A DNA stretch of 64,000 nucleotides from Streptacidiphilus sp. ASG 303 (GTDB lineage Bacteria; Actinomycetota; Actinomycetes; Streptomycetales; Streptomycetaceae), in assembly GCF_020991365.1 (NCBI RefSeq), contig NZ_JAJLRA010000004.1:186001-250000 (forward strand), read 5' to 3'. Of this stretch, positions 34,741 to 50,106 are shown piece after piece (positions within the stretch are counted from its first letter, which is position 1; the number at the start of each line of letters is the position of its first letter). The translations under genes were made by a program, and so were the position numbers. The notes under the pieces are model-generated. The model ran no database searches, was not told where the DNA came from, and saw only the letters and a program-made list of their open reading frames with translations.

Positions 34741-34829
34741 GGAGGGCTGCCCGAGTGGCCTAAGGGAACAGTCTTGAAAACTGTCGCCAGGGGTGACCCT
34801 GGCCGAGGGTTCGAATCCCTCGCCCTCCG
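34741..34829 (+). tRNA. tRNA-Ser (anticodon UGA)
   Basis: An 89-nt class II tRNA. The acceptor arms GGAGGGC (34741-34747) and GCCCTCC (34822-34828) pair, discriminator G at 34829; CCA is not encoded. The anticodon stem is 34768-34772/34780-34784 with UGA at 34775-34777. The long variable arm (about 34786-34803) marks it as Ser. Its 3' part from 34771 is the attL copy left by the integrated element. Confidence 0.97.
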
Positions 34830-34831
34830 CG
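34771..34831 (+). repeat. attL (61-bp direct repeat, in tRNA-Ser)
   Basis: Identical to 50046-50106. It starts in the 3' side of the anticodon stem region and runs two bases past the acceptor end, so integration leaves a complete tRNA gene at this end. Confidence 0.95.
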
Positions 34832-38582: not shown

Positions 38583-39065
38583 TCAGTCCCAGGAGTTGAA
38601 GATCACTTGGCCGATGCTGGTTGGTCGCCAGTGGCGAATCGCCTGCCGCTCACCGGCCGCCAGGGTGGAGGTGTCCGCCTTGGACAGCGGCGAGTTGAGC
38701 TGATGGAGGCTCAGCACTACGAAGGCCGCGTCGGTGAAGGCGCTCGACCACGTAGGTGCCTCCCGGAACTCGTCTGAGTAGGAGTATCGCTGATCGGCGA
38801 CGAAGGCGATGAGGGGGAAGTGAGCGTGGCACAGGATGACGTGCGCTCCGTGGCCGTTGGTGATCGTGGCGGTGTGGAACGTCCGCGGGTACGTCTGCGG
38901 GATGAAGTTGCCGACTCGTCCACAGGCGATCCGGGCAGCGGTGTGCCAGCCGGCGCGGAAGGCGCTCACATCGACCATCGGCAGTGGTCCGGTCTTCGGG
39001 TCGTAGAACCCGGTGACACCCCGGTCCAGTCGGAACACCGGCTCCGGGCCGAGCTCAGACCGCAT
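38583..39065 (-). CDS. Unidentified protein of the XRE-Nudix operon
   Basis: A 160-residue soluble protein with GVTGFYDPKTGPLPMVDVSA, TATITNGHGAHVILCHAHFP and the end RPTSIGQVIFNSWD. The pattern of His and Asp is not a motif I know. Its ATG (39065) overlaps the end of the Nudix gene by 11 bp, so it is coupled to it. Its role is probably linked to the Nudix protein. Confidence 0.75.
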   Translation of the reverse strand: MRSELGPEPVFRLDRGVTGFYDPKTGPLPMVDVSAFRAGWHTAARIACGRVGNFIPQTYPRTFHTATITNGHGAHVILCHAHFPLIAFVADQRYSYSDEFREAPTWSSAFTDAAFVVLSLHQLNSPLSKADTSTLAAGERQAIRHWRPTSIGQVIFNSWD

Positions 39066-39546
39066 GGCCGGCAGGTTGGCCGTGTTCGAGGTAGACCGGG
39101 GCCTGTCCGGCGCGGGCGTGGGCTGCGGCGGTGATGCGGCGGGCAAGGCGCGGGATGGTGCGCTCGCCGATGGCGGCGATGGGCACGAACTGGACACCTC
39201 GCAGTTCGTCGGGCTGGAGGGTGACGGCTTCGAGGGCGGCGGGGGTGAGATGGCCTCCGTCGAAGAGATACAGGACCTTGTCGCCCTCGTGGTCGCTGGG
39301 TGCCCAGTCGACCGCAAGCAATTGGCCAATGAGCGGGGTGATGCCGAGTTCTTCGCGTACCTCGCGGATGCAGGCTTGCAGGGGGGATTCGCCGGTCTCG
39401 ACGTACCCGCCGGGGATCTCCCAGTAGTCCTTGTAGGTCGGCTCCACCATGAGGACGCGGTCGGCGTCGTCGAAGAAGAGCGCACCCGCTGCCATTCGCG
39501 GGTGCGCCATCTTGGCTTCGTGCTCGTTGGGGGCCATGGGCTCCAC
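39055..39546 (-). CDS. Nudix hydrolase, candidate Pif-like immunity factor
   Basis: A 163-residue Nudix protein with a complete Nudix box: Gly47, Glu53 and REVREELGI at 61-69. In the related element pSAM2, the immunity factor Pif carries a Nudix motif and blocks redundant transfer between cells that already have the element; this gene is in a comparable place. Identity with Pif is inferred, not shown. GTG 39546 or ATG 39537 may be the start; neither has a clear ribosome site. It follows the XRE gene by 10 bp. Confidence 0.85.
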   Translation of the reverse strand: MEPMAPNEHEAKMAHPRMAAGALFFDDADRVLMVEPTYKDYWEIPGGYVETGESPLQACIREVREELGITPLIGQLLAVDWAPSDHEGDKVLYLFDGGHLTPAALEAVTLQPDELRGVQFVPIAAIGERTIPRLARRITAAAHARAGQAPVYLEHGQPAGHAV

Positions 39547-39556
39547 AGTACCCAGG

Positions 39557-40780
39557 TCAGACGACGTGCAGTCGCTGGGCGAGGTCGGCGAGCGGGCGGC
39601 CGGGGCGGGTGCGCTGGTTGCGGACCCAGTTCAGGACGAGTTCGCGGGCGAGGTAGTGGTGCCGGACCTGCTCGGGCGCCCACTGCTCGGCTTCGAGGAC
39701 CATGGACAGGGCATCGTCGGCCTGGTTGCGGGCGCTCATAGCGCGGGCTACTTCGAGGTTGTGGCGGGCGCGCCGTTCGGTGGGCAGGCCGGCGGTGTCG
39801 ACCTGTGGACCGAGTTCGACGGCGACCTGCATGTCTCCGAGTTCTGCGGCCGTGGCCACCTGGTGGATGGCGACGTTGGTCGGGCCGAAGGCGGTCCACA
39901 TGTGGTTGGCGTCGTGGCCCATGCGCTCGGCGGCGCGGCCGGCCTCGGTGAGGAAGTCCCGAGTGGTGTTGCGGTCATCGGCGCGGGCGGTGGCCATGGA
40001 GCCGGCGAGCAGGAGCGTCCCGAAGATCGACAGGTATTCGGGTGTGGCGTCGCGCAGTCCGGGCCGCAGGTAGCCGGCGGCGTCCTGGACAAGTTGGACG
40101 GCGGAGTCATAGCGACCGTTGGAGAGCAGGCAGTGTGCGACGGAGCGGAAGAGGGAGCCGACGATGATCGGGCTTCCGCCCTGCTGGGCGGCGGACAGTC
40201 CGCGGTCGGCTGCGATCCAGGCGAGGTCGGTCTCGCCGAGCTTGGTCAGCACCATGGCGGCGCCCTGGTAGCTCATGGCCAACAGCTCGTGGGCCTGCGT
40301 ACCGTCCCGGCCGGTGTAGGACTGGGCGGCCAGGATGGCGTCCGCGAGGATCAGCGGGAGTCGGCGGGTGGCATAGCCGTACCGCGATGCCTGGTAGGCG
40401 TCCCAGACGTCGGCGACGTCCCGGCGGAGTTCGGCGAGGTCGGTCGGCTCGCCTTCGGTGGGAACCCCGAGGAGCGGGGTGAGCTGGCGGTAGTTCATCA
40501 GGGCTTCGCGCAGGACAGGAACGGTGCGCCGGCCGCTCTCAGGAGTCCACTCCATGAGGGAGGGTTCGGCGAGCAGGTCGCCCAGAGTCACGTCCAGGGC
40601 GTCGGCCAGGCTCTTGATGACCGACAGCCGGTCCAGCTCGATGCGGTTGTTCTCGGCCTTGCTGAGCCAGTCGGTGGTCCGGCCGACCAGCCCGGCGAGC
40701 ACGTCCTGAGACATGCCACGCCGCCGCCGGTACCAGGCCACTCGTTCGCCGATGGTGAGGTTCGTCGTCATTCCTCGCAT
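39557..40780 (-). CDS. XRE-family regulator with TPR-like C-terminal domain
   Basis: A 407-residue protein. The HTH covers about residues 10-70 (RRGMSQDVLAGLVGRTTDWL) and the rest is helical repeats like those of actinobacterial peptide- or ligand-sensing regulators. It is the first gene of a three-gene minus-strand operon with the Nudix and unidentified proteins, and is divergent from a small gene at 40914. A perfect 11-bp inverted repeat at 40810-40836 is a likely operator. ATG 40780 or 40771 is the start. Confidence 0.88.
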   Translation of the reverse strand: MRGMTTNLTIGERVAWYRRRRGMSQDVLAGLVGRTTDWLSKAENNRIELDRLSVIKSLADALDVTLGDLLAEPSLMEWTPESGRRTVPVLREALMNYRQLTPLLGVPTEGEPTDLAELRRDVADVWDAYQASRYGYATRRLPLILADAILAAQSYTGRDGTQAHELLAMSYQGAAMVLTKLGETDLAWIAADRGLSAAQQGGSPIIVGSLFRSVAHCLLSNGRYDSAVQLVQDAAGYLRPGLRDATPEYLSIFGTLLLAGSMATARADDRNTTRDFLTEAGRAAERMGHDANHMWTAFGPTNVAIHQVATAAELGDMQVAVELGPQVDTAGLPTERRARHNLEVARAMSARNQADDALSMVLEAEQWAPEQVRHHYLARELVLNWVRNQRTRPGRPLADLAQRLHVV

Positions 40781-41523: not shown

Positions 41524-41874
41524 ATGCCGTCCTTCAAGATCGACACTTCTACCGCGATCGTGTTCGTGGCCGTTCCGGCCGCGCCGAAGGTGGTCAACAA
41601 GCAGACGGGCGAGATCGCCCTCGACCGGGAGACCGGCGCGCAGATGATGACCGTGGGCCTGACCGTCGCCGACGAGGGGGAGGCCAACCTCTACACCGTG
41701 TCCATCCCGGCGTCCGGCATCCCCGAGGGTCTGCAGGTGGGCATGCCGGTCTCGGTCGTGGGCCTGAAGGCGCGGGACTGGGAGAACGAGTTCAACGGGC
41801 AGAAGCGGCACGGCATCTCGTTCCGTGCGGTGGCGCTCGTGCCGGCCCAGTTCCCGGCTGCGGTGCAGGGCTGA
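41524..41874 (+). CDS. Pra-like replication/excision activator candidate
   Basis: A 116-residue soluble protein, predicted beta-rich (VGLTVADEGEANLYTVSIPA, VSVVGLKARDW). It is first in the plus-strand run of the element, straight after the repressor sites, where pSAM2 has pra, the activator of rep-xis-int. Layout and size agree, and a pattern TGxxxxxVGLTV resembles annotated Pra proteins, but the similarity was not measured. AGGAGAG precedes the ATG. Confidence 0.65.
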   Translation: MPSFKIDTSTAIVFVAVPAAPKVVNKQTGEIALDRETGAQMMTVGLTVADEGEANLYTVSIPASGIPEGLQVGMPVSVVGLKARDWENEFNGQKRHGISFRAVALVPAQFPAAVQG

Positions 41875-41880
41875 TCCGCC

Positions 41881-43257
41881 GTGGCTGACTGGACCCCTCT
41901 CCTGGAACTGGGTGGCCCGCTGGTCGCCGGCGGTGCCGGGGCCGCCTACGCCCGGGTCAAGGCGCCCCGCGCGTACTGGTCGGCGATCGGTCTGCCGGTG
42001 ACCGCGGCCCGGATCGCCCACTCCTATGCGGAGGTGATGGAGGCGTGCGGGCTGGCGGTGGAGCCGTCGATGTGGCGCACGCTGGTCGCCCGGGGTGAGG
42101 AGCGGCAGGGGCTCAAGCCGACGCCGCCGCGGGTGCGGGGGGTGCGTCCGACCGCGACGGGGCTGCGGCTTCGGCTGCGGCTGGCCCGGGGGCAGGAGAC
42201 CGCGGATGTGGTGGCCGCCGCCGAGCGGCTGCGGCACGCGTGGGGGGTGCACGCCGCCTACGTGAGCGAGATACGCCCCGGGGTGGTGGACCTGCGGCTG
42301 GTCGGCTTCGACGTGCTGCGGCGTGTGCGGATGCCGCGTGCGGTGCGGGCCGGCCACCCGGTGCGGGTGCCGGTGGCGCTGCGTGAGGACGGGACCGTGT
42401 TCGTGCGCGACTACCGGACCGAGCCGCACTCGCTGATCCTGGGGGCCGGGCAGGCGGGCAAGTCGACGTTCGTCCGCAATCTGGTCTGCGCGCTGGCTGT
42501 GCGGCCGGTGGCGCTGGTGGGGATCGACTGCAAGCGCGGGGTGGAGCACGCCCCGTTCGCCCCGCGGCTCTCCGCGCTGGCCACCGACCCGGATGCGGCG
42601 CTGGACGTGCTGCGGGCGCTGGTGGCGGAGATGGACGCCCGCTACGACCTGATCCGCGCCCAGCAGGGCATCCCCGGGTGGGTGCCGGACGAGCAGGTCA
42701 CCGCCGACATCTGGGGCCTGCCGGCCACGGTGCGGCCGGTGCCGGTCGTGGTGGTGGTCGATGAGATCGCGGAGCTGTTCCTCGTGGCCACCAAGGCGGA
42801 CGAGAAGCGGCGCAACGAGATCGTCACCGCCCTGGTCCGGCTGGCCCAGCTCGCCCGCGCGGCCGGGATCTTCCTCGACGTCGCCGGGCAGCGCTTCGGC
42901 GCCGACCTGGGCCGGGGGGCGACGCTGCTGCGCTCGCAGCTCACGGCCCGGGTCGTGCACCGGGTCAATGATGTGGAGACTGCCCGCATGGGGCTGGGGG
43001 ACATCTCCGAGCAGGCCATGGCCGCGGCCACGCAGATCCCGCCCGGCACCCCGGGGCTGGCGGTGGCCGGGGACGCCTCGGGCGCCTGGTCCCGTATCCG
43101 CCCCGCGCACCTGTCCCTCGCGGACGCGGCCCGGATCTGCCGGAACAGCGCGCACCTGGTCCCGGACCTGCCCCGGCTGGATGCGTTCCGGCCGGTCGCG
43201 GCGGTGCCGGCGCCGCGGATCCCGCCCAAGCCCACCCGGGTCCCGGCCATCCCCTGA
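41881..43257 (+). CDS. FtsK/SpoIIIE-type conjugal transfer ATPase (TraSA-like)
   Basis: A 458-residue DNA translocase. Walker A is GAGQAGKST at about 188-196 (Lys194) and Walker B VVVVVDEIAE with Asp294/Glu295. The N-terminal 185 residues lack clear membrane helices. Streptomyces elements transfer double-stranded DNA between mycelia with one FtsK-like protein of this kind; no type IV secretion genes are needed or seen. The GTG start is 6 bp after the Pra-like gene. Confidence 0.92.
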   Translation: MADWTPLLELGGPLVAGGAGAAYARVKAPRAYWSAIGLPVTAARIAHSYAEVMEACGLAVEPSMWRTLVARGEERQGLKPTPPRVRGVRPTATGLRLRLRLARGQETADVVAAAERLRHAWGVHAAYVSEIRPGVVDLRLVGFDVLRRVRMPRAVRAGHPVRVPVALREDGTVFVRDYRTEPHSLILGAGQAGKSTFVRNLVCALAVRPVALVGIDCKRGVEHAPFAPRLSALATDPDAALDVLRALVAEMDARYDLIRAQQGIPGWVPDEQVTADIWGLPATVRPVPVVVVVDEIAELFLVATKADEKRRNEIVTALVRLAQLARAAGIFLDVAGQRFGADLGRGATLLRSQLTARVVHRVNDVETARMGLGDISEQAMAAATQIPPGTPGLAVAGDASGAWSRIRPAHLSLADAARICRNSAHLVPDLPRLDAFRPVAAVPAPRIPPKPTRVPAIP

Positions 43258-43789: not shown

Positions 43790-44518
43790 ATGTCCCGACT
43801 GCCCCGCCCGGACGCCGTCCTGGTGCAGGCCGTGATCGCCGGTGCCCTGTCCTTCGCCCATCTCCACGACATCGCGGCGGCGGCCGGCCAGGACGGCTGG
43901 AAGGCGTGGGCCTACCCCGTCTCCGTGGACCTGCTGCTGGTCGCCGCCTGGCGCCGGATGCGCACCCTGCGCGCGGTTGGGGCCCCGGCGCGCTCGGCCT
44001 GGACCTGGTTCGCCACCGCCCTGACCGCCTCGCTCGGCGCCAACGTCGCCACCGCCGGACTCCTCGACCTGGCCGCGGTTCCGGACTGGCTGCGGATCCT
44101 TGTCGCCGGATGGCCCGCCGTCGCCTTCTTCGGCGGCACCCTCCTCGCCCACACCCGGACCGGCACCGATGAGGCGGAGCCTGCCGAGACCCCGGACTCC
44201 GTCTACACCGCCCCGGCCCCCGCGGCCGAACCCGCCGAGACCCCCTCCCCGGAGCCGGAACTGGTCCCGGCCCCCGACCCGCGGCCGGCCCTGCTCCCAG
44301 CCGCATTGCAACCGCCGGCGCCCGCCCCGGCCGCGGCTGCCCCCGTCCCGGCCCCGGCGGCTGCTCCTGCGGTGCCGGCGGCGCTGGTCGACCACGCCCG
44401 CAAGGTCGCCGACGCGCACCGCGCCCGCACTGGGGCGCCGATCGACGCGGCCACGCTGCGCGCCCGGCTCGGGGTGGCCCCGCAGCTCGCCGACGCTCTC
44501 ACCGCCCACCTCACCTGA
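43790..44518 (+). CDS. DUF2637 membrane protein, SpdB-like spread protein
   Basis: A 242-residue protein with about four membrane segments in the first 125 residues (VQAVIAGALSFAHLHDIA, WAYPVSVDLLLVAAWR) and a Pro/Ala-rich cytoplasmic linker before a small helical end domain (about 185-242). Spd proteins help intramycelial spread of transferred DNA in Streptomyces. AAGGAGGAA precedes the ATG. Confidence 0.87.
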   Translation: MSRLPRPDAVLVQAVIAGALSFAHLHDIAAAAGQDGWKAWAYPVSVDLLLVAAWRRMRTLRAVGAPARSAWTWFATALTASLGANVATAGLLDLAAVPDWLRILVAGWPAVAFFGGTLLAHTRTGTDEAEPAETPDSVYTAPAPAAEPAETPSPEPELVPAPDPRPALLPAALQPPAPAPAAAAPVPAPAAAPAVPAALVDHARKVADAHRARTGAPIDAATLRARLGVAPQLADALTAHLT

Positions 44519-44529
44519 GGAGACCTGTC

Positions 44530-44724
44530 GTGTCCGTCTCGCTCCCCCTCGTCCTGGTCCTCGGCGTCGTCGCCTGGCTGGTCGTGAAGTTCTTCCGGCT
44601 GCGCTGGTGGGCCGTGCTCGCCCTGGTCCTCTTCGGCTTCTACCTGGCCGGCACCATCTTCGCCCCGCTCATCGACGACACCACCCGCTCCGGGGTGGAC
44701 GCCGTCAACCACACCACCAAGTAA
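44530..44724 (+). CDS. Small two-helix membrane protein (spread-associated)
   Basis: A 64-residue protein with two membrane helices (VLVLGVVAWLVVKFF and WAVLALVLFGFYLAG) and a soluble tail. It sits between SpdB-like and SpdD-like genes, 11 bp after the first. GAGGAG precedes the GTG start. Confidence 0.8.
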   Translation: MSVSLPLVLVLGVVAWLVVKFFRLRWWAVLALVLFGFYLAGTIFAPLIDDTTRSGVDAVNHTTK

Positions 44725-44747: not shown

Positions 44748-45071
44748 ATGTTGCGGCCCAAGCTCCCCGCCCCCGTTCACGTGATCACCACCGCAGGGCA
44801 GCCCGCAGCAGCCCCGGCCTGCACCTGCTACCACGGCATCGCCCCGGCTGCCTACGCGCCGCCGACAGTCGTCCACGCCCCGCACCCGGCTCCCCGCCGA
44901 CCGGTCGCCCCCTACGTCGCGGCCGGTGCCGCCGCGGTGGCGGGTGTCGTGGCCCTGGCCACCGTGCTGACCGCGCTGCTGCTCGCCGTCGCCGTGACTG
45001 CCGTCTCGGTCGCGGTCGCCGCCGTGGTGCTGCGCTCCCTGGTCGGCGGCCCCGGCTCCCCGCGCCGCTGA
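44748..45071 (+). CDS. SpdD-like membrane protein
   Basis: A 107-residue protein with a Cys/His-containing N-terminus (APACTCYHGIAP) and a hydrophobic C-terminal half (about 55-95). Size, membrane part and place after SpdB agree with SpdD. GGAAGGAG precedes the ATG. The stop overlaps the first base of the 60-bp repeat. Confidence 0.75.
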   Translation: MLRPKLPAPVHVITTAGQPAAAPACTCYHGIAPAAYAPPTVVHAPHPAPRRPVAPYVAAGAAAVAGVVALATVLTALLLAVAVTAVSVAVAAVVLRSLVGGPGSPRR

Positions 45072-45130
45072 CCGGTCCCCGGGACGGCCTCGATACCGCC
45101 AAGCATCCGCCGCCCCGCAGACCTCAACCC
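45071..45130 (+). repeat. 60-bp direct repeat, copy 1, before the GGDEF gene
   Basis: Matches 45721-45780 at 58 of 60 positions. It contains GGCCTCGATACCGCC between partly paired arms. Both differences from copy 2 break pairs of the hairpin. Confidence 0.92.
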
Positions 45131-45165
45131 CCATCTCGCACTGCCGCCCGGAAAGGACCCGCCCG

Positions 45166-45717
45166 ATGGACCTCGCCCCGCTCCTCGCCGCCGCCGGCGT
45201 CCCGCTCGCCGGATGGACCGCCCACGGCGCGGTGCTCACCCGCCGCCTGGCCGGCGCCCGCCGTGACCCGCTCACCGGCCTGCACACCCGCGACGGCTTC
45301 ACCGCCCGCGCCGACCACCTGATCCGCACCCGTCCCGCCCGGGTCACGGTGCTGCTGGTCGACCTGGACGACTTCAAGCACACCAACGACACCCACGGCC
45401 ACGCCGCCGGGGACGCCGTCCTGGCTGCTGCTGCCGACCGGCTCGCCGCCTGGACCGGCCGCATGGGCGTCGCCGCCCGCCTCGGGGGTGACGAGTTCGC
45501 CGCCGCCGTCCTGGACGGATCCGACCGGCTTCCCGCCCTGCGCTCCGCGCTGCGCCGGCCCGTCCCGCACGGCGGGGTGCTGCTGCCGCTGTCCGCCTCC
45601 GTCGGCGCCGCCCGCGTGGCGGACCTGCCGATGCCCGTGCTGAGTGACGCGCTCGCCGCCGCGGACGCCGCGATGTACGCGGCCAAGCCCTCGGGCCGCA
45701 CCGCGCGCCGCCGCTGA
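45166..45717 (+). CDS. GGDEF diguanylate cyclase on the AICE
   Basis: A 183-residue protein that is almost only a GGDEF domain, which makes cyclic di-GMP from two GTP. The signature is intact (RLGGDEFAAAV, residues 107-111), as are the metal site LLVDLDDFKHTNDTHGHAAGD and the start RDPLTGLHTRDGF. No inhibitory RxxD site stands five residues before GGDEF, so it may lack product feedback. The first 30 residues are weakly hydrophobic, without a sensor domain. The gene is flanked by the two 60-bp repeats. Confidence 0.93.
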   Translation: MDLAPLLAAAGVPLAGWTAHGAVLTRRLAGARRDPLTGLHTRDGFTARADHLIRTRPARVTVLLVDLDDFKHTNDTHGHAAGDAVLAAAADRLAAWTGRMGVAARLGGDEFAAAVLDGSDRLPALRSALRRPVPHGGVLLPLSASVGAARVADLPMPVLSDALAAADAAMYAAKPSGRTARRR

Positions 45718-45720
45718 AAG

Positions 45721-45780
45721 ACCGGTCCCCGGGGCGGCCTCGATACCGCCAAGCATCCGCCGCCCCGGAGACCTCAACCC
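45721..45780 (+). repeat. 60-bp direct repeat, copy 2, after the GGDEF gene
   Basis: In this copy CCGGGGCGGC (45729-45738) pairs perfectly with GCCGCCCCGG (45759-45768), with CTCGATA near the loop. Copies lie exactly 650 bp apart. Confidence 0.92.
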
Positions 45781-45813
45781 CATCCCGAACCCAAGAGCCC
45801 GGAAGGGACCTCC

Positions 45814-46005
45814 ATGATGCCCCAGACCACCCCCGCCCCGGTCCGCGTCTGCCCCGACTGCGACGGCCACGCCACCGCCGCCGTCAGCCTCGGCCCCCGA
45901 CGCGCGGACGGCACCCTGCCCACGGTCACGGTCGCCTGCCGCACCTGCCACGGCGCCGGAGCCGTCCCCGCCCGCCGCCTGGCCCTGGCCGCGGCCGGCC
46001 GGTGA
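45814..46005 (+). CDS. Small CxxC zinc-finger-like protein
   Basis: A 63-residue protein with CPDCDGHATA and CRTCHGAGAV, a DnaJ-type pair of CxxC units like the protein at 43516-43704. GGAAGGGA precedes the ATG. It overlaps the next gene by GTGA. Confidence 0.75.
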   Translation: MMPQTTPAPVRVCPDCDGHATAAVSLGPRRADGTLPTVTVACRTCHGAGAVPARRLALAAAGR

Positions 46006-46261: not shown

Positions 46262-47272
46262 ATGCCCGCACCCGCCCGCATCCTTGACCTGTTCGCCGGC
46301 CCCGGCGGCTGGACCCAGGGCCTCGCCGCCCTCGGCCACCGGGACATCGGCCTGGAGACCGACCCCGCCGCCTGCGCCACCCGCGCCGCCGCCGGGCACA
46401 CCACCGTCCGCGCCGACGTCGCCGCCCACCCCACCGCGCCCCTGGCCGGGAAGGTCGCGGGGCTGATCGCCTCCCCGCCGTGCCAGACCTGGTCCGCCGC
46501 CGGACGCCGGGCCGGAAGCGACGACCTGCCCCTGTGCCTGCAGGCCCTGGACGACCTCGCCGCCGGCCGCGACACCCGCACCGCCCTGCGCACCGCCTGC
46601 ACCGACCCCCGCTCCCTGCTGGTCGCCGAACCCCTGCGCTACGCCCTCGACCTGCGCCCCGGCTGGATCGCCCTGGAGGAGGTCCCTGCCGCCGCCCCGG
46701 TGTTCGCCCACACCGCCCGCCACCTGGCCGCCGTCGGCTACGCCACCTGGACCGGCGTGCTGAACGCCGCCGACTACGGCGTCCCCCAGACCCGCCGCCG
46801 CGCCTTCCTCCTCGCCTCGACCCTCGCCCCCGTCGCACCGCCGCAGCCCACCCACGCCAAGAACCCCGGCCCTGAGACCCTCTTCGGTTCCGCCCCCGCC
46901 CCGTGGGTGAGCATGGCCGACGCCCTCGGCTGGGGCGCCACCGACCGCCCAGCTCCCACCGTCACCGCCGGCGGCGGCAGGAGCGGCGGACCCGAGCCCT
47001 TCCCCACCCAGGCCCGCAACGCCCTCAAGCAGGCCCAGCAGCGCGGCGCCTGGGCGCTCCGCAACGGCGGCAACCGCCCCGACGGCGCCGACTCCGTCCG
47101 CATCACTGTCGCCGAAGCCGCCGCCCTGCAGACCTTCCCGCCCGGCTACCCCTTCCAGGGCACCAAGACCAAGCAGTTCGAGCAGGCCGGCAACGCCGTC
47201 CCCCCGCGCCTGGCCGCCGCCGTCCTCCGCACCCTGGTCCCCGCCGCCGACCGCGTAGGGGTGGCTGCCTGA
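46262..47272 (+). CDS. Second DNA (cytosine-5) methyltransferase, coupled to rep
   Basis: A 336-residue C5 methyltransferase. Motif I is LDLFAGPGGWTQG, motif IV SPPCQTW with Cys74, motif VIII QTRRRAFLLAS and motif X QAGNAVPPRLA. Motif VI, normally ENV, reads LEEVPA, so the usual Asn is missing. No endonuclease gene is adjacent. Its stop overlaps the rep start (TGATG). It may protect transferred DNA from host restriction or mark the origin. Confidence 0.92.
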   Translation: MPAPARILDLFAGPGGWTQGLAALGHRDIGLETDPAACATRAAAGHTTVRADVAAHPTAPLAGKVAGLIASPPCQTWSAAGRRAGSDDLPLCLQALDDLAAGRDTRTALRTACTDPRSLLVAEPLRYALDLRPGWIALEEVPAAAPVFAHTARHLAAVGYATWTGVLNAADYGVPQTRRRAFLLASTLAPVAPPQPTHAKNPGPETLFGSAPAPWVSMADALGWGATDRPAPTVTAGGGRSGGPEPFPTQARNALKQAQQRGAWALRNGGNRPDGADSVRITVAEAAALQTFPPGYPFQGTKTKQFEQAGNAVPPRLAAAVLRTLVPAADRVGVAA

Positions 47273-48618
47273 TGCCCGCCGCCACCCCGCCCCCGGTCGC
47301 CGACCTGCAGCAGATCGCCCAGCTCGGCACCATGCCCGCCCTGATGCGGCAGCTCTCCGGCCTGGCCGGCTGCACCCGCCCCATCCGCCTCGACGGCTGG
47401 CGCACCGAGATCCACGCCCCGACCGGCGAAGTCCTGCACCACTTGGAATCCGCCAACCTGCCCGCCGGGAACCTGCTGCTGCGCTGCGGCAACCGCCGCG
47501 CCACCCGCTGCGCCCCCTGCGCGGAGACCTACCGCCGCGACACCTACCACCTGATCACCGCCGGCCTCACCGGCGGCAAGGGCGTCCCCGCCACCGTCGC
47601 CGCGCACCCGCGGGTCTTCGCCACCTTCACCGCCCCCTCCTTCGGCCCCGTCCACCACCGCCGCAAGGACGCCCGCCCCTGCCGCTGCGGCACCCTGCAT
47701 GGCGAGGACGACCCGGCCCTCGGCACACCGATCGACCCCGGCACCTACGACTACCGGGCCGCGGTGCTGTGGAACGCCCACGCCGGCGCCCTGTGGGCAC
47801 GCTTCACCATCCACCTGCGCCGCGAACTCGCCCGCGCCGCCGGGCTGACCCAGCGGGAGTTCAAGAACCACGCGCGGGTCTCCTTCGGCAAGGTCGCCGA
47901 GTACCAGCGCCGCGGCGCCGTGCACTTCCACGCCGTGATCCGCCTCGACGGCCCCGAGGGCGGCGACACCCCGCCCCCGCCCTGGGCCACCCCCGGGCTG
48001 CTCGCCGACGCCATCCGCGCCGCCGCCGCCCGCGCCTGCCCGCCCGCCCTGGACCACGGCGGCCGCTCCTACGAGTTCCGGTTCGGCCCCCAGCTCGACA
48101 TCCGCACCATCCGCTCCGCCGACTTTGACGGCCCCACCCCCGTCACCGAACGCGCGGTCGCCGCCTACATCGCCAAGTACGCCACCAAGGGAGCCGAGAC
48201 CGCCACCGGCGCCCTCGACCGCCCGGTGAGGTTCCTCGCCGAACTCGCCCACCTCGACATCTCCGAGCACGCCCGCCGCCTGGTCCGCACCTGCTGGGAC
48301 CTCGGCGCGGACCCCGAGTTGGGCGATCTGCGGCTGCGGGCCTGGGCTCACATGCTCGGCTTCCGCGGCCACTTCTCCACCAAGACCCGCCGCTACTCCA
48401 CCACCCTCGGCGCCCTGCGCGAGGCCCGCGCCGCCTGGCGCCGCGCCCAAGCCGCCGAACACCTCCACGGCCCCGACACCCCGCCCGCCGACGAGGAGAC
48501 GGCCCTCGTCCTCGCCCACTGGGCCTTCGCCGGCACCGGCCTCACCCCCGGCGAGACCTGGCTCGCCCAAGCGATCGCCCCCGCACCCGGAACGGAAGGA
48601 GAACCCACCCGTGCCTGA
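47272..48618 (+). CDS. repSA: RepSA-like rolling-circle replication initiator
   Basis: A 448-residue initiator. The HUH metal motif is VHFHAVIRLDG (His218, His220) and the catalytic Tyr lies in YIAKYATKG (Tyr299 or Tyr303). Two CxxC pairs near residues 70-85 (RCGNRRATRCAPC) and 140 (CRCGTLHG) probably bind zinc. It nicks the double-strand origin to start rolling-circle replication of the excised circle. Start codon overlaps the methyltransferase stop; the end overlaps xis by 8 bp. Confidence 0.92.
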   Translation: MPAATPPPVADLQQIAQLGTMPALMRQLSGLAGCTRPIRLDGWRTEIHAPTGEVLHHLESANLPAGNLLLRCGNRRATRCAPCAETYRRDTYHLITAGLTGGKGVPATVAAHPRVFATFTAPSFGPVHHRRKDARPCRCGTLHGEDDPALGTPIDPGTYDYRAAVLWNAHAGALWARFTIHLRRELARAAGLTQREFKNHARVSFGKVAEYQRRGAVHFHAVIRLDGPEGGDTPPPPWATPGLLADAIRAAAARACPPALDHGGRSYEFRFGPQLDIRTIRSADFDGPTPVTERAVAAYIAKYATKGAETATGALDRPVRFLAELAHLDISEHARRLVRTCWDLGADPELGDLRLRAWAHMLGFRGHFSTKTRRYSTTLGALREARAAWRRAQAAEHLHGPDTPPADEETALVLAHWAFAGTGLTPGETWLAQAIAPAPGTEGEPTRA

Positions 48619-48823
48619 CGGCCTGCTCACCATCGCCCAGGTTGCCGAGATCCTCAGCACGACCGAGCGCTTCCCGCGCCGGCTCATCGAGGAGCGGCGG
48701 ATCACGTTCGTCAAGGTCGGACGCCACGTCCGCATCCCGGCCGATGCCCTCGCCGCCTACATCGCGGCCAACACCGTGCACCCGGCTCCCCTGCGCCGGC
48801 CTCGGCTGGGGGTGGCTGCCTGA
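48611..48823 (+). CDS. xis: Excisionase (Xis)
   Basis: A 70-residue winged-helix protein of the MerR-like excisionase type (LLTIAQVAEILSTTERFPRR, then FVKVGRHVRIPADALAAYI). It bends DNA at the att sites to favour excision. It overlaps rep and int at both ends, giving a coupled rep-xis-int unit as in pSAM2. Confidence 0.93.
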   Translation: MPDGLLTIAQVAEILSTTERFPRRLIEERRITFVKVGRHVRIPADALAAYIAANTVHPAPLRRPRLGVAA

Positions 48824-50007
48824 TGGCCAGGAAGCGCGTCGGGCGCCGCCAGTTCGGCGCCATCCGCAAGCTCCCGTCCGGCCGCTACCAGGCACGCTAC
48901 GTGGGCCCGGACGGCGTTCTGCGGCCTGCTGACCGGACCTTTGCCACGGTGACGGACGCTGACCTCTGGTTGGCCAAGAAGCGCATAGAGATCGAGGACG
49001 GGCGGTGGCTCGACCCTGACGCCGGGCGGATCACCGTGGAGACGTGGGCGTACCGCTGGCTGGCATCGGTGGAGCCGCAGCTCAAGCCGAAGACGCGGGC
49101 TCTCTACCGGGGGCTGATCAGGTCGCGGATCGCCCCGGCATTCGGTGATCGGGAGGTGGCCGCGGTCCGTCCGATCATGGTGGGGGAGTGGGTGGCTGCC
49201 ATGGGGGCCGAAGGGCTCAGCGCGTCCCGCATTCGGCAGGCCTACCGGCTGATGTCCCAGGTGATGCGCTCGGCGGTGGCGAACGGTCTGCGGCGGGAGT
49301 CGCCCTGCGTGGACGTCCGACTGCCTCGGATGCCGGAGACTGAACCGCACATCCTCACGCCACTGGAGGCGGCCCGCCTCGTGCGCGAGACGCAGCAACC
49401 GTATGACGTCCTGGTGGCCCTGCTCGCCTTCGCCGGCCTCCGGATCGGGGAAGCATTCGCCCTACGGCGCTCGGACGTTGACCTGGCAGCCGGCCTCCTC
49501 TTGGTGGACGAGAACCTGTCCGACGCAGGGGGCGTGCTGACCTTCGACACGCCCAAGTCGCACCAGAAGCGCACGCTCGCGCTGTCGCCGTCGCTGGTGA
49601 AACGGCTGGCCGTCCACCTCGATGGACTGCCGGCGGCCCGGGACACGCTGCTGTTCACGACCCGAAGCGGCACGCCGCTGCGCTACAACCAGTGGCGCAA
49701 AGCCTGCTTCGACCCCGCGGTGACGGCCGCCGGCCTGGAGGACGTGACTCCTCACGACCTTCGCGCGTCGCATGCGTCCTGGGTCGCCGACCGGCACGGG
49801 GTCATGACGGCCGCCCGTCGGCTCGGTCACTCCAACGGCAGCGTCACCACCCGCCACTACGCCCGGCCCGTGCCCGGCCGTGACGCAGAGGTCGCCATGG
49901 CCATGGACGGATGGTTGGGCGACGAACGGCACGGCGGGCCCGAAGTGGCACGCGAATGGCACGCCGACGGGAGCGGCACCGAAGATGGGGCCTCGGAGGC
50001 TCCCTGA
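48823..50007 (+). CDS. int: Tyrosine recombinase integrase
   Basis: A 394-residue integrase with N-terminal arm-binding domain (about 1-65), core-binding domain (about 70-175) and catalytic domain. The active site is Arg207 (GLRIGEA), His311/Arg314 (PHDLRASH), His336 (RLGHSN) and Tyr346 (TRHYARP). All are intact. It recombines attP with the 3' end of tRNA-Ser(UGA). Its last codons contain the right arm-type site. The stop is 38 bp before attR. Confidence 0.96.
   Translation: MARKRVGRRQFGAIRKLPSGRYQARYVGPDGVLRPADRTFATVTDADLWLAKKRIEIEDGRWLDPDAGRITVETWAYRWLASVEPQLKPKTRALYRGLIRSRIAPAFGDREVAAVRPIMVGEWVAAMGAEGLSASRIRQAYRLMSQVMRSAVANGLRRESPCVDVRLPRMPETEPHILTPLEAARLVRETQQPYDVLVALLAFAGLRIGEAFALRRSDVDLAAGLLLVDENLSDAGGVLTFDTPKSHQKRTLALSPSLVKRLAVHLDGLPAARDTLLFTTRSGTPLRYNQWRKACFDPAVTAAGLEDVTPHDLRASHASWVADRHGVMTAARRLGHSNGSVTTRHYARPVPGRDAEVAMAMDGWLGDERHGGPEVAREWHADGSGTEDGASEAP
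49946..49963. promoter_or_regulatory. Candidate integrase arm-type site, right
   Basis: Exact second copy of the 18-bp sequence at 34935-34952, inside the integrase 3' end (coding AREWH). See the left copy. Confidence 0.65.
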
Positions 50008-50045: not shown

Positions 50046-50106
50046 GTCTTGAAAACTGTCGCCAGGGGTGACCCTGGCCGAGGGTTCGAATCCCTCGCCC
50101 TCCGCG
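50046..50106 (+). repeat. attR (61-bp direct repeat, 3' fragment of tRNA-Ser)
   Basis: Identical to 34771-34831. Only the 3' half of the tRNA is present, so it is not a functional gene; this is the original host tRNA 3' end displaced by integration. Confidence 0.95.

Follow-up and report, generated by a model that had tools for sequence, protein, structure and literature searches.

Diguanylate cyclases (DGCs) carried by mobile elements are a known kind of gene. Those of the SXT/R391 integrative and conjugative elements (ICEs; PMC2791158), which the original prediction for this locus named as a precedent, and Dgc137 of a Vibrio genomic island (PMC10672970) are able to alter host behavior, as may the gene described here, although they belong to other bacteria with other transfer machinery and affect biofilm and motility. 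Chromosomal DGCs of Streptomyces (CdgB, CdgC, and others) share the GGDEF catalytic fold and act via c-di-GMP and BldD (PMC4151990), but they are mostly multidomain proteins with PAS, GAF, or TM sensors (PMC6205966). The pSAM2-type AICEs resemble our element in their RepSA, Xis, Int, TraB, Spd, and Nudix genes and their tRNA att site, whereas a GGDEF gene goes unmentioned in a survey of actinobacterial ICEs (PMC3218068). The role of such a gene in AICEs was expected to be little explored, which fits the open-licence literature, although one plasmid-borne family member, pCdgG of Streptomyces venezuelae, had been catalogued earlier, as a prediction and no more than that, among the DGCs (PMC6205966). 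What is new here is a family of predicted I-site-free DGCs dedicated to mobile elements and tied to Streptomyces transfer modules, along with a common hairpin leader.

The window we analyzed is a stretch of 64,000 nucleotides from Streptacidiphilus sp. ASG 303. Identical 61-bp repeats lie within the 3′ part of a tRNA-Ser (TGA) gene (attL, 34771–34831, + strand; tRNA, 34741–34830) and just past the integrase gene (attR, 50046–50106, +), and we therefore identify an integrated AICE of ~15.3 kb. Between these att repeats we found the tyrosine integrase, Xis, RepSA, and FtsK-type TraB of a pSAM2-type element; judged by this gene content, the element is an AICE and is predicted to be mobile. Its conserved run, all on the + strand, opens with a SCO3933-family regulatory protein (41524–41871; NF051478, 143.7 bits against a cutoff of 80), followed by a TraB/FtsK-type DNA translocase (41881–43257; PF01580, 1.5e-34), an Spd-like membrane protein with DUF2637 (43790–44518; PF10935, 7.1e-20), a small membrane protein recognized from the ORF list and kept in syntenic AICEs (44530–44724), and a small Spd-like membrane ORF, recognized from its sequence, immediately 5′ of the GGDEF cassette (44748–45071). 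After the GGDEF gene (45166–45717) come a small CxxC zinc-finger-like ORF (45814–46005), a C5 cytosine methylase with an inferred start (46262–47272; PF00145, 2.7e-31), the rolling-circle replication initiator RepSA (47272–48618; PF20199, 3.5e-155), Xis (48611–48823; TIGR01764, 3.7e-15), and the tyrosine integrase (48823–50007; PF00589, 2.4e-17). This order therefore places the GGDEF gene inside the transfer and replication run of a conjugative element, as had been claimed for it.

Several other genes of the element deserve mention. The C5 methylase gene is inserted between the zinc-finger-like ORF with its preceding hairpin and repSA, and the same is seen at locus L253. On the − strand, an XRE/TPR regulator (39557–40780; HTH_31, 7e-11) is weakly similar to NsdA, its match to NsdA_fam_reg (E 4.7e-9) falling under that model's cutoff; members of the NsdA family are repressors of sporulation and antibiotic production. 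A Nudix hydrolase is encoded at 39055–39546 (−), and its family likeness is to Pif, the conjugal immunity protein of pSAM2 (PMC3218068).

The GGDEF gene encodes a minimal protein of 183 aa that matches PF00990 (E 6.7e-29; 101 bits against a cutoff of 23.8) and TIGR00254 (92 bits against a cutoff of 37.4), with the GGDEF motif at residues 107–111. Its metal-, GTP-, and guanine-binding residues are all in place (D66, N74, D75, H79, D83, R105, and the motif itself); D83, the Asp of HxxGD, we take to be the equivalent of PleD D344, which gives guanine specificity. Positions G-9 and G-6 of the I-site are both glycine, so the protein has no RxxD five residues before GGDEF, the feature of a feedback-type I-site. 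An AlphaFold model built from 42 sequences (mean pLDDT 91.1) has a helix at residues 4–31 and then a GGDEF fold, the top Foldseek matches to this model were solved diguanylate cyclases or GGDEF domains (E 1e-14), and sequence matches in the PDB agreed, solved diguanylate cyclases again being best. The protein thus belongs to the GGDEF family by domain score, residues, and modeled fold, and is a predicted diguanylate cyclase; the original description of a minimal GGDEF protein with an intact active site and without an inhibitory RxxD was correct. A Hypr-type GGDEF that makes cGAMP or c-di-AMP is disfavored because the Asp equivalent to PleD D344 is invariant. DGCs need to dimerize; apart from its one helix, the protein lacks any recognized dimerization domain, and it has no known sensor domain. 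The hydropathy of that helix is borderline, under the usual transmembrane strength in most copies of the family, and membrane placement and a coiled-coil dimer are both candidate roles for it.

Of 101 genomes from the host's family, 38 contain a relative at E<1e-30 and 74 contain RepSA. A search of other AICEs for the gene between spd and rep had been suggested, and we found it there in nine Streptomyces contigs from a homology search (56–67% identity, with differing integrases) and at 16 RepSA loci of the 101-genome sample. These 16 are the copies with RepSA directly downstream, among 49 GGDEF copies and 150 listed RepSA loci. The gene is missing beside the other 134 listed RepSA loci; transfer in itself therefore does not require it, and it is optional for these elements. 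Copies outside the RepSA setting occur in other element kinds, such as one with Prim-Pol, AAA, SSB, and integrase genes by Pfam (L196); at another locus Pfam shows the GGDEF gene overlapping a DUF2637 gene by 4 bp (L198). Under a looser limit, relatives were present on 190 plasmid records, 179 of them from Streptomyces, a number that stands as a count rather than a fraction (the window's Spd protein, used as a plasmid probe, matched 2 records). The carriers include MOBF circular plasmids (e.g., pFP1), linear plasmids, and the S. venezuelae plasmid; there were no SXT elements among the relatives found in this search of plasmid records. The host genome alone holds four family copies, three besides that in the window (C145:231166, C77:69892, C189:203197, and C156:374434); RepSA AICEs carry two of the four, and a different integrase-bearing kind of element (L010, L011) carries the remaining two. 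Because the published pan-genome survey excluded plasmids (PMC6205966) and this one genome has four copies, the core chromosome by itself is not enough to infer c-di-GMP networks in Streptomyces.

Conservation within the family suggests that selection keeps an active, uninhibited enzyme, since catalytic residues are invariant, RxxD is absent, and dN/dS is low. In 53 element-borne copies, down to ~45% identity, D66, F70, K71, N74, D75, G78, H79, G82, D83, R105, and G107–E110 are invariant, and K174 is kept in 52. RxxD was found in 0 of 52 mobile copies compared with 63 of 104 other GGDEFs. The gene is under purifying selection, with a dN/dS of 0.17–0.50 (eight pairs), similar to that of rep and tra; these values, the intact residues, and the syntenic homologues in other species rule out a chance ORF or a pseudogene. 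The minimal architecture, with its want of dimerization and sensor domains, would also suit a protein that is inactive or that is a nucleotide-binding partner, for example by dimerizing with host DGCs, and is kept for binding rather than catalysis. We regard this as very improbable, as binding-only GGDEFs usually lose catalytic residues and here all of them, including the GGDEF motif, are invariant. In a tree built by a rapid method, in which some branches are long, the element-borne copies all fall on one side of a branch (SH-aLRT 98) from 31 chromosomal GGDEF rows, which represent the sampled GGDEFs. These chromosomal proteins, several of which keep RxxD, thus form a separate branch, and the best reading of the tree is that, within this sampling, the element-borne copies are a family of their own, specific to the mobile elements of actinobacteria. 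Two further origins or roles were considered: PADLOC gave no match for the GGDEF protein as an anti-phage gene, and a phage origin was set aside, with a single weak phage record found.

We detected two copies of a hairpin flanking the GGDEF gene, one 34 nt 5′ of its start codon (45070–45131, +; model R1, 67.6 bits) and one ahead of the rep block's small ORF (45720–45781, +; R1, 73.2 bits), a position it also has in related AICEs, where the zinc-finger-like ORF comes after it. The two are 62-nt direct repeats that are 97% identical, and their 23-nt core had no other occurrence in the host genome at up to 3 mismatches. A comparison of the gaps upstream and downstream of the gene revealed the same pair in most close relatives. 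An alignment of 40 copies has a stem and an almost invariant loop, CGCCAA, and across 73 copies all seven pairs change on both sides. The covariation score of these 73 copies, in an alignment fitted to the model, is 0.266, compared with 0.096 for shuffled alignments (none of 500 reached the observed score) and no more than 0.079 when slid; the first, unfitted alignment scored 0.272 against 0.114. Single-sequence folding compared with shuffles gave z 0.66 for copy 1, 0.40 for the L009 copy, and −2.85 for copy 2, so the case for the structure rests on covariation, the first two folds being no stabler than their shuffles.

Among the 101 family genomes, 51 gave hits to the covariance models R1/R2, and for 77 of 97 hairpin hits a same-strand RepSA gene follows at a distance of no more than 4 kb. 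Other hairpins lie ~15–36 nt 5′ of TraB-like, Prim-Pol, sigma-like, and small membrane genes, and on pFP1 and CP108398 the hairpin is 24–27 nt 5′ of the GGDEF gene. It looks like a leader common to rep, tra, and DGC genes, a candidate RNA or DNA element. Rfam had no match up to E 5 at 45070–45131 or 45720–45781, which speaks against a known RNA such as a c-di-GMP riboswitch, and the hairpin is newly noticed here. Its place upstream of repSA and a complement that reads CTTGG could indicate a rolling-circle origin; this reading is disfavored on two grounds: a pair of direct copies at a spacing of 650 bp would be expected to be unstable, and the hairpin also precedes tra, Prim-Pol, and other genes, as well as GGDEF on pFP1, which is listed as a theta-type plasmid (PMC3583192). 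As a recurrent leader, the hairpin offers a handle on gene coordination in these elements and merits its own study.

The GGDEF gene and its hairpins form an optional module that has been gained or lost at one fixed place. An AICE in the same genome (C118) is without the gene and is closely related at the spd–rep locus to the AICE at C77. Their aligned segments adjoin precisely where spd stops and rep starts, and the extra ~1.03 kb of C77 contains hairpin, GGDEF, and hairpin, leaving C118 as a clean empty site. On a RepSA tree, gene presence clusters in two clades and needs about seven or more changes, an approximate count in which the window's own element (L106) was scored as lacking the gene, the methylase having pushed GGDEF beyond the stretch examined. 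Such a module might be cargo that aids the host in another way, through antibiotic output, glycogen use, or adhesion, rather than a tool of the element; c-di-GMP is also reported to regulate glycogen breakdown and secondary metabolism in Streptomyces (PMC9530166, PMC7026642). This seems quite unlikely: AICE cargo genes are often decayed (PMC9513070), yet an internal stop occurs in only 1 of 49 listed copies, and the gene always takes the same position, between spd and rep, behind a hairpin leader that it has in common with rep.

High c-di-GMP from a DGC arrests S. venezuelae in vegetative growth in a BldD-dependent manner (PMC4151990), and the BldD of our host carries the c-di-GMP motif RGD-X8-RQDD. 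Intramycelial spread of AICEs and plasmids delays development and sporulation (PMC9513070), and invaded mycelium has long been known to show slowed growth and late sporulation, seen as pocks (PMC4170104). On balance we favor the reading that the window protein is an active, I-site-free c-di-GMP synthase of the element's transfer and replication module that prolongs the vegetative mycelium via BldD and RsiG–WhiG. Behind the same hairpin leader as rep, the gene would be expressed when the element is active, for instance after entry into a recipient hypha. The uninhibited enzyme would then raise c-di-GMP, which would favor repression of sporulation by BldD-(c-di-GMP) and RsiG–WhiG, and the vegetative mycelium would be prolonged while the element replicates, spreads, and transfers. 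That the host would be held in vegetative growth through these two regulators is plausible. Counting against this reading are the presence of an adjoining copy at only 16 of 150 listed RepSA loci, the 33 of 49 copies with no RepSA gene after them, and the lack of a dimerization domain beyond one helix.

Pocks have been credited to spd genes, for example on pIJ101, with no DGC mentioned, and Spd proteins are unlike any functionally characterized protein (PMC4170104). Given that elements can do without the GGDEF gene and that pock formation relies on spd, the gene would at most have a modulating role. Placement amid spd, tra, and rep genes, and a short, possibly membrane-associated hydrophobic helix at the N terminus, could instead suggest that an active DGC supplies c-di-GMP locally, to the element's own transfer or spread proteins or to growth near the transfer site, with host development unchanged. 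We consider this unlikely: Pfam and profile scans recognized no c-di-GMP-binding domain among the element's proteins scanned, the weak hydropathy of the helix in most copies speaks against membrane association, and family members were found in elements with unrelated transfer genes. If host development is indeed the target, as we prefer, the many transferable elements with the same gene family may keep host bacteria in the phase of growth at which DNA transfer occurs, and the family connects element transfer with the c-di-GMP/BldD developmental switch directly and in a way that can be tested. Our broader proposal is tentative, and rather doubtful as a whole: that actinobacterial conjugative elements share a family of uninhibited DGCs that overrides the host's developmental clock and is expressed with rep and transfer genes via a previously undescribed hairpin leader. 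If true, some of the delay in sporulation that accompanies element spread would be accounted for.

The plasmid-borne members have gene neighborhoods of their own. Like the window protein, pCdgG (plasmid NZ_CP018075) is a minimal GGDEF protein of the same clade (57% identity over residues 17–117), and its gene lies near TraB-type transfer genes; unlike the window gene, it is on a linear plasmid, with WhiB and Lsr2 genes downstream of it. On linear plasmids we observed a tight run of GGDEF, a small gene, and then WhiB and Lsr2 genes (L206, 11920–14403; L207, 8920–11460; L256, 35795–38326), an arrangement that resembles a plasmid-borne module for silencing and for host development. A gene annotated as a "Pycsar system effector family protein" lies immediately 5′ of GGDEF on one plasmid (L097, 8203–9597) and ~5 kb upstream on another (L098, 3372–3842), and a nucleotide-signal link between the two genes is possible, if not a tight one.
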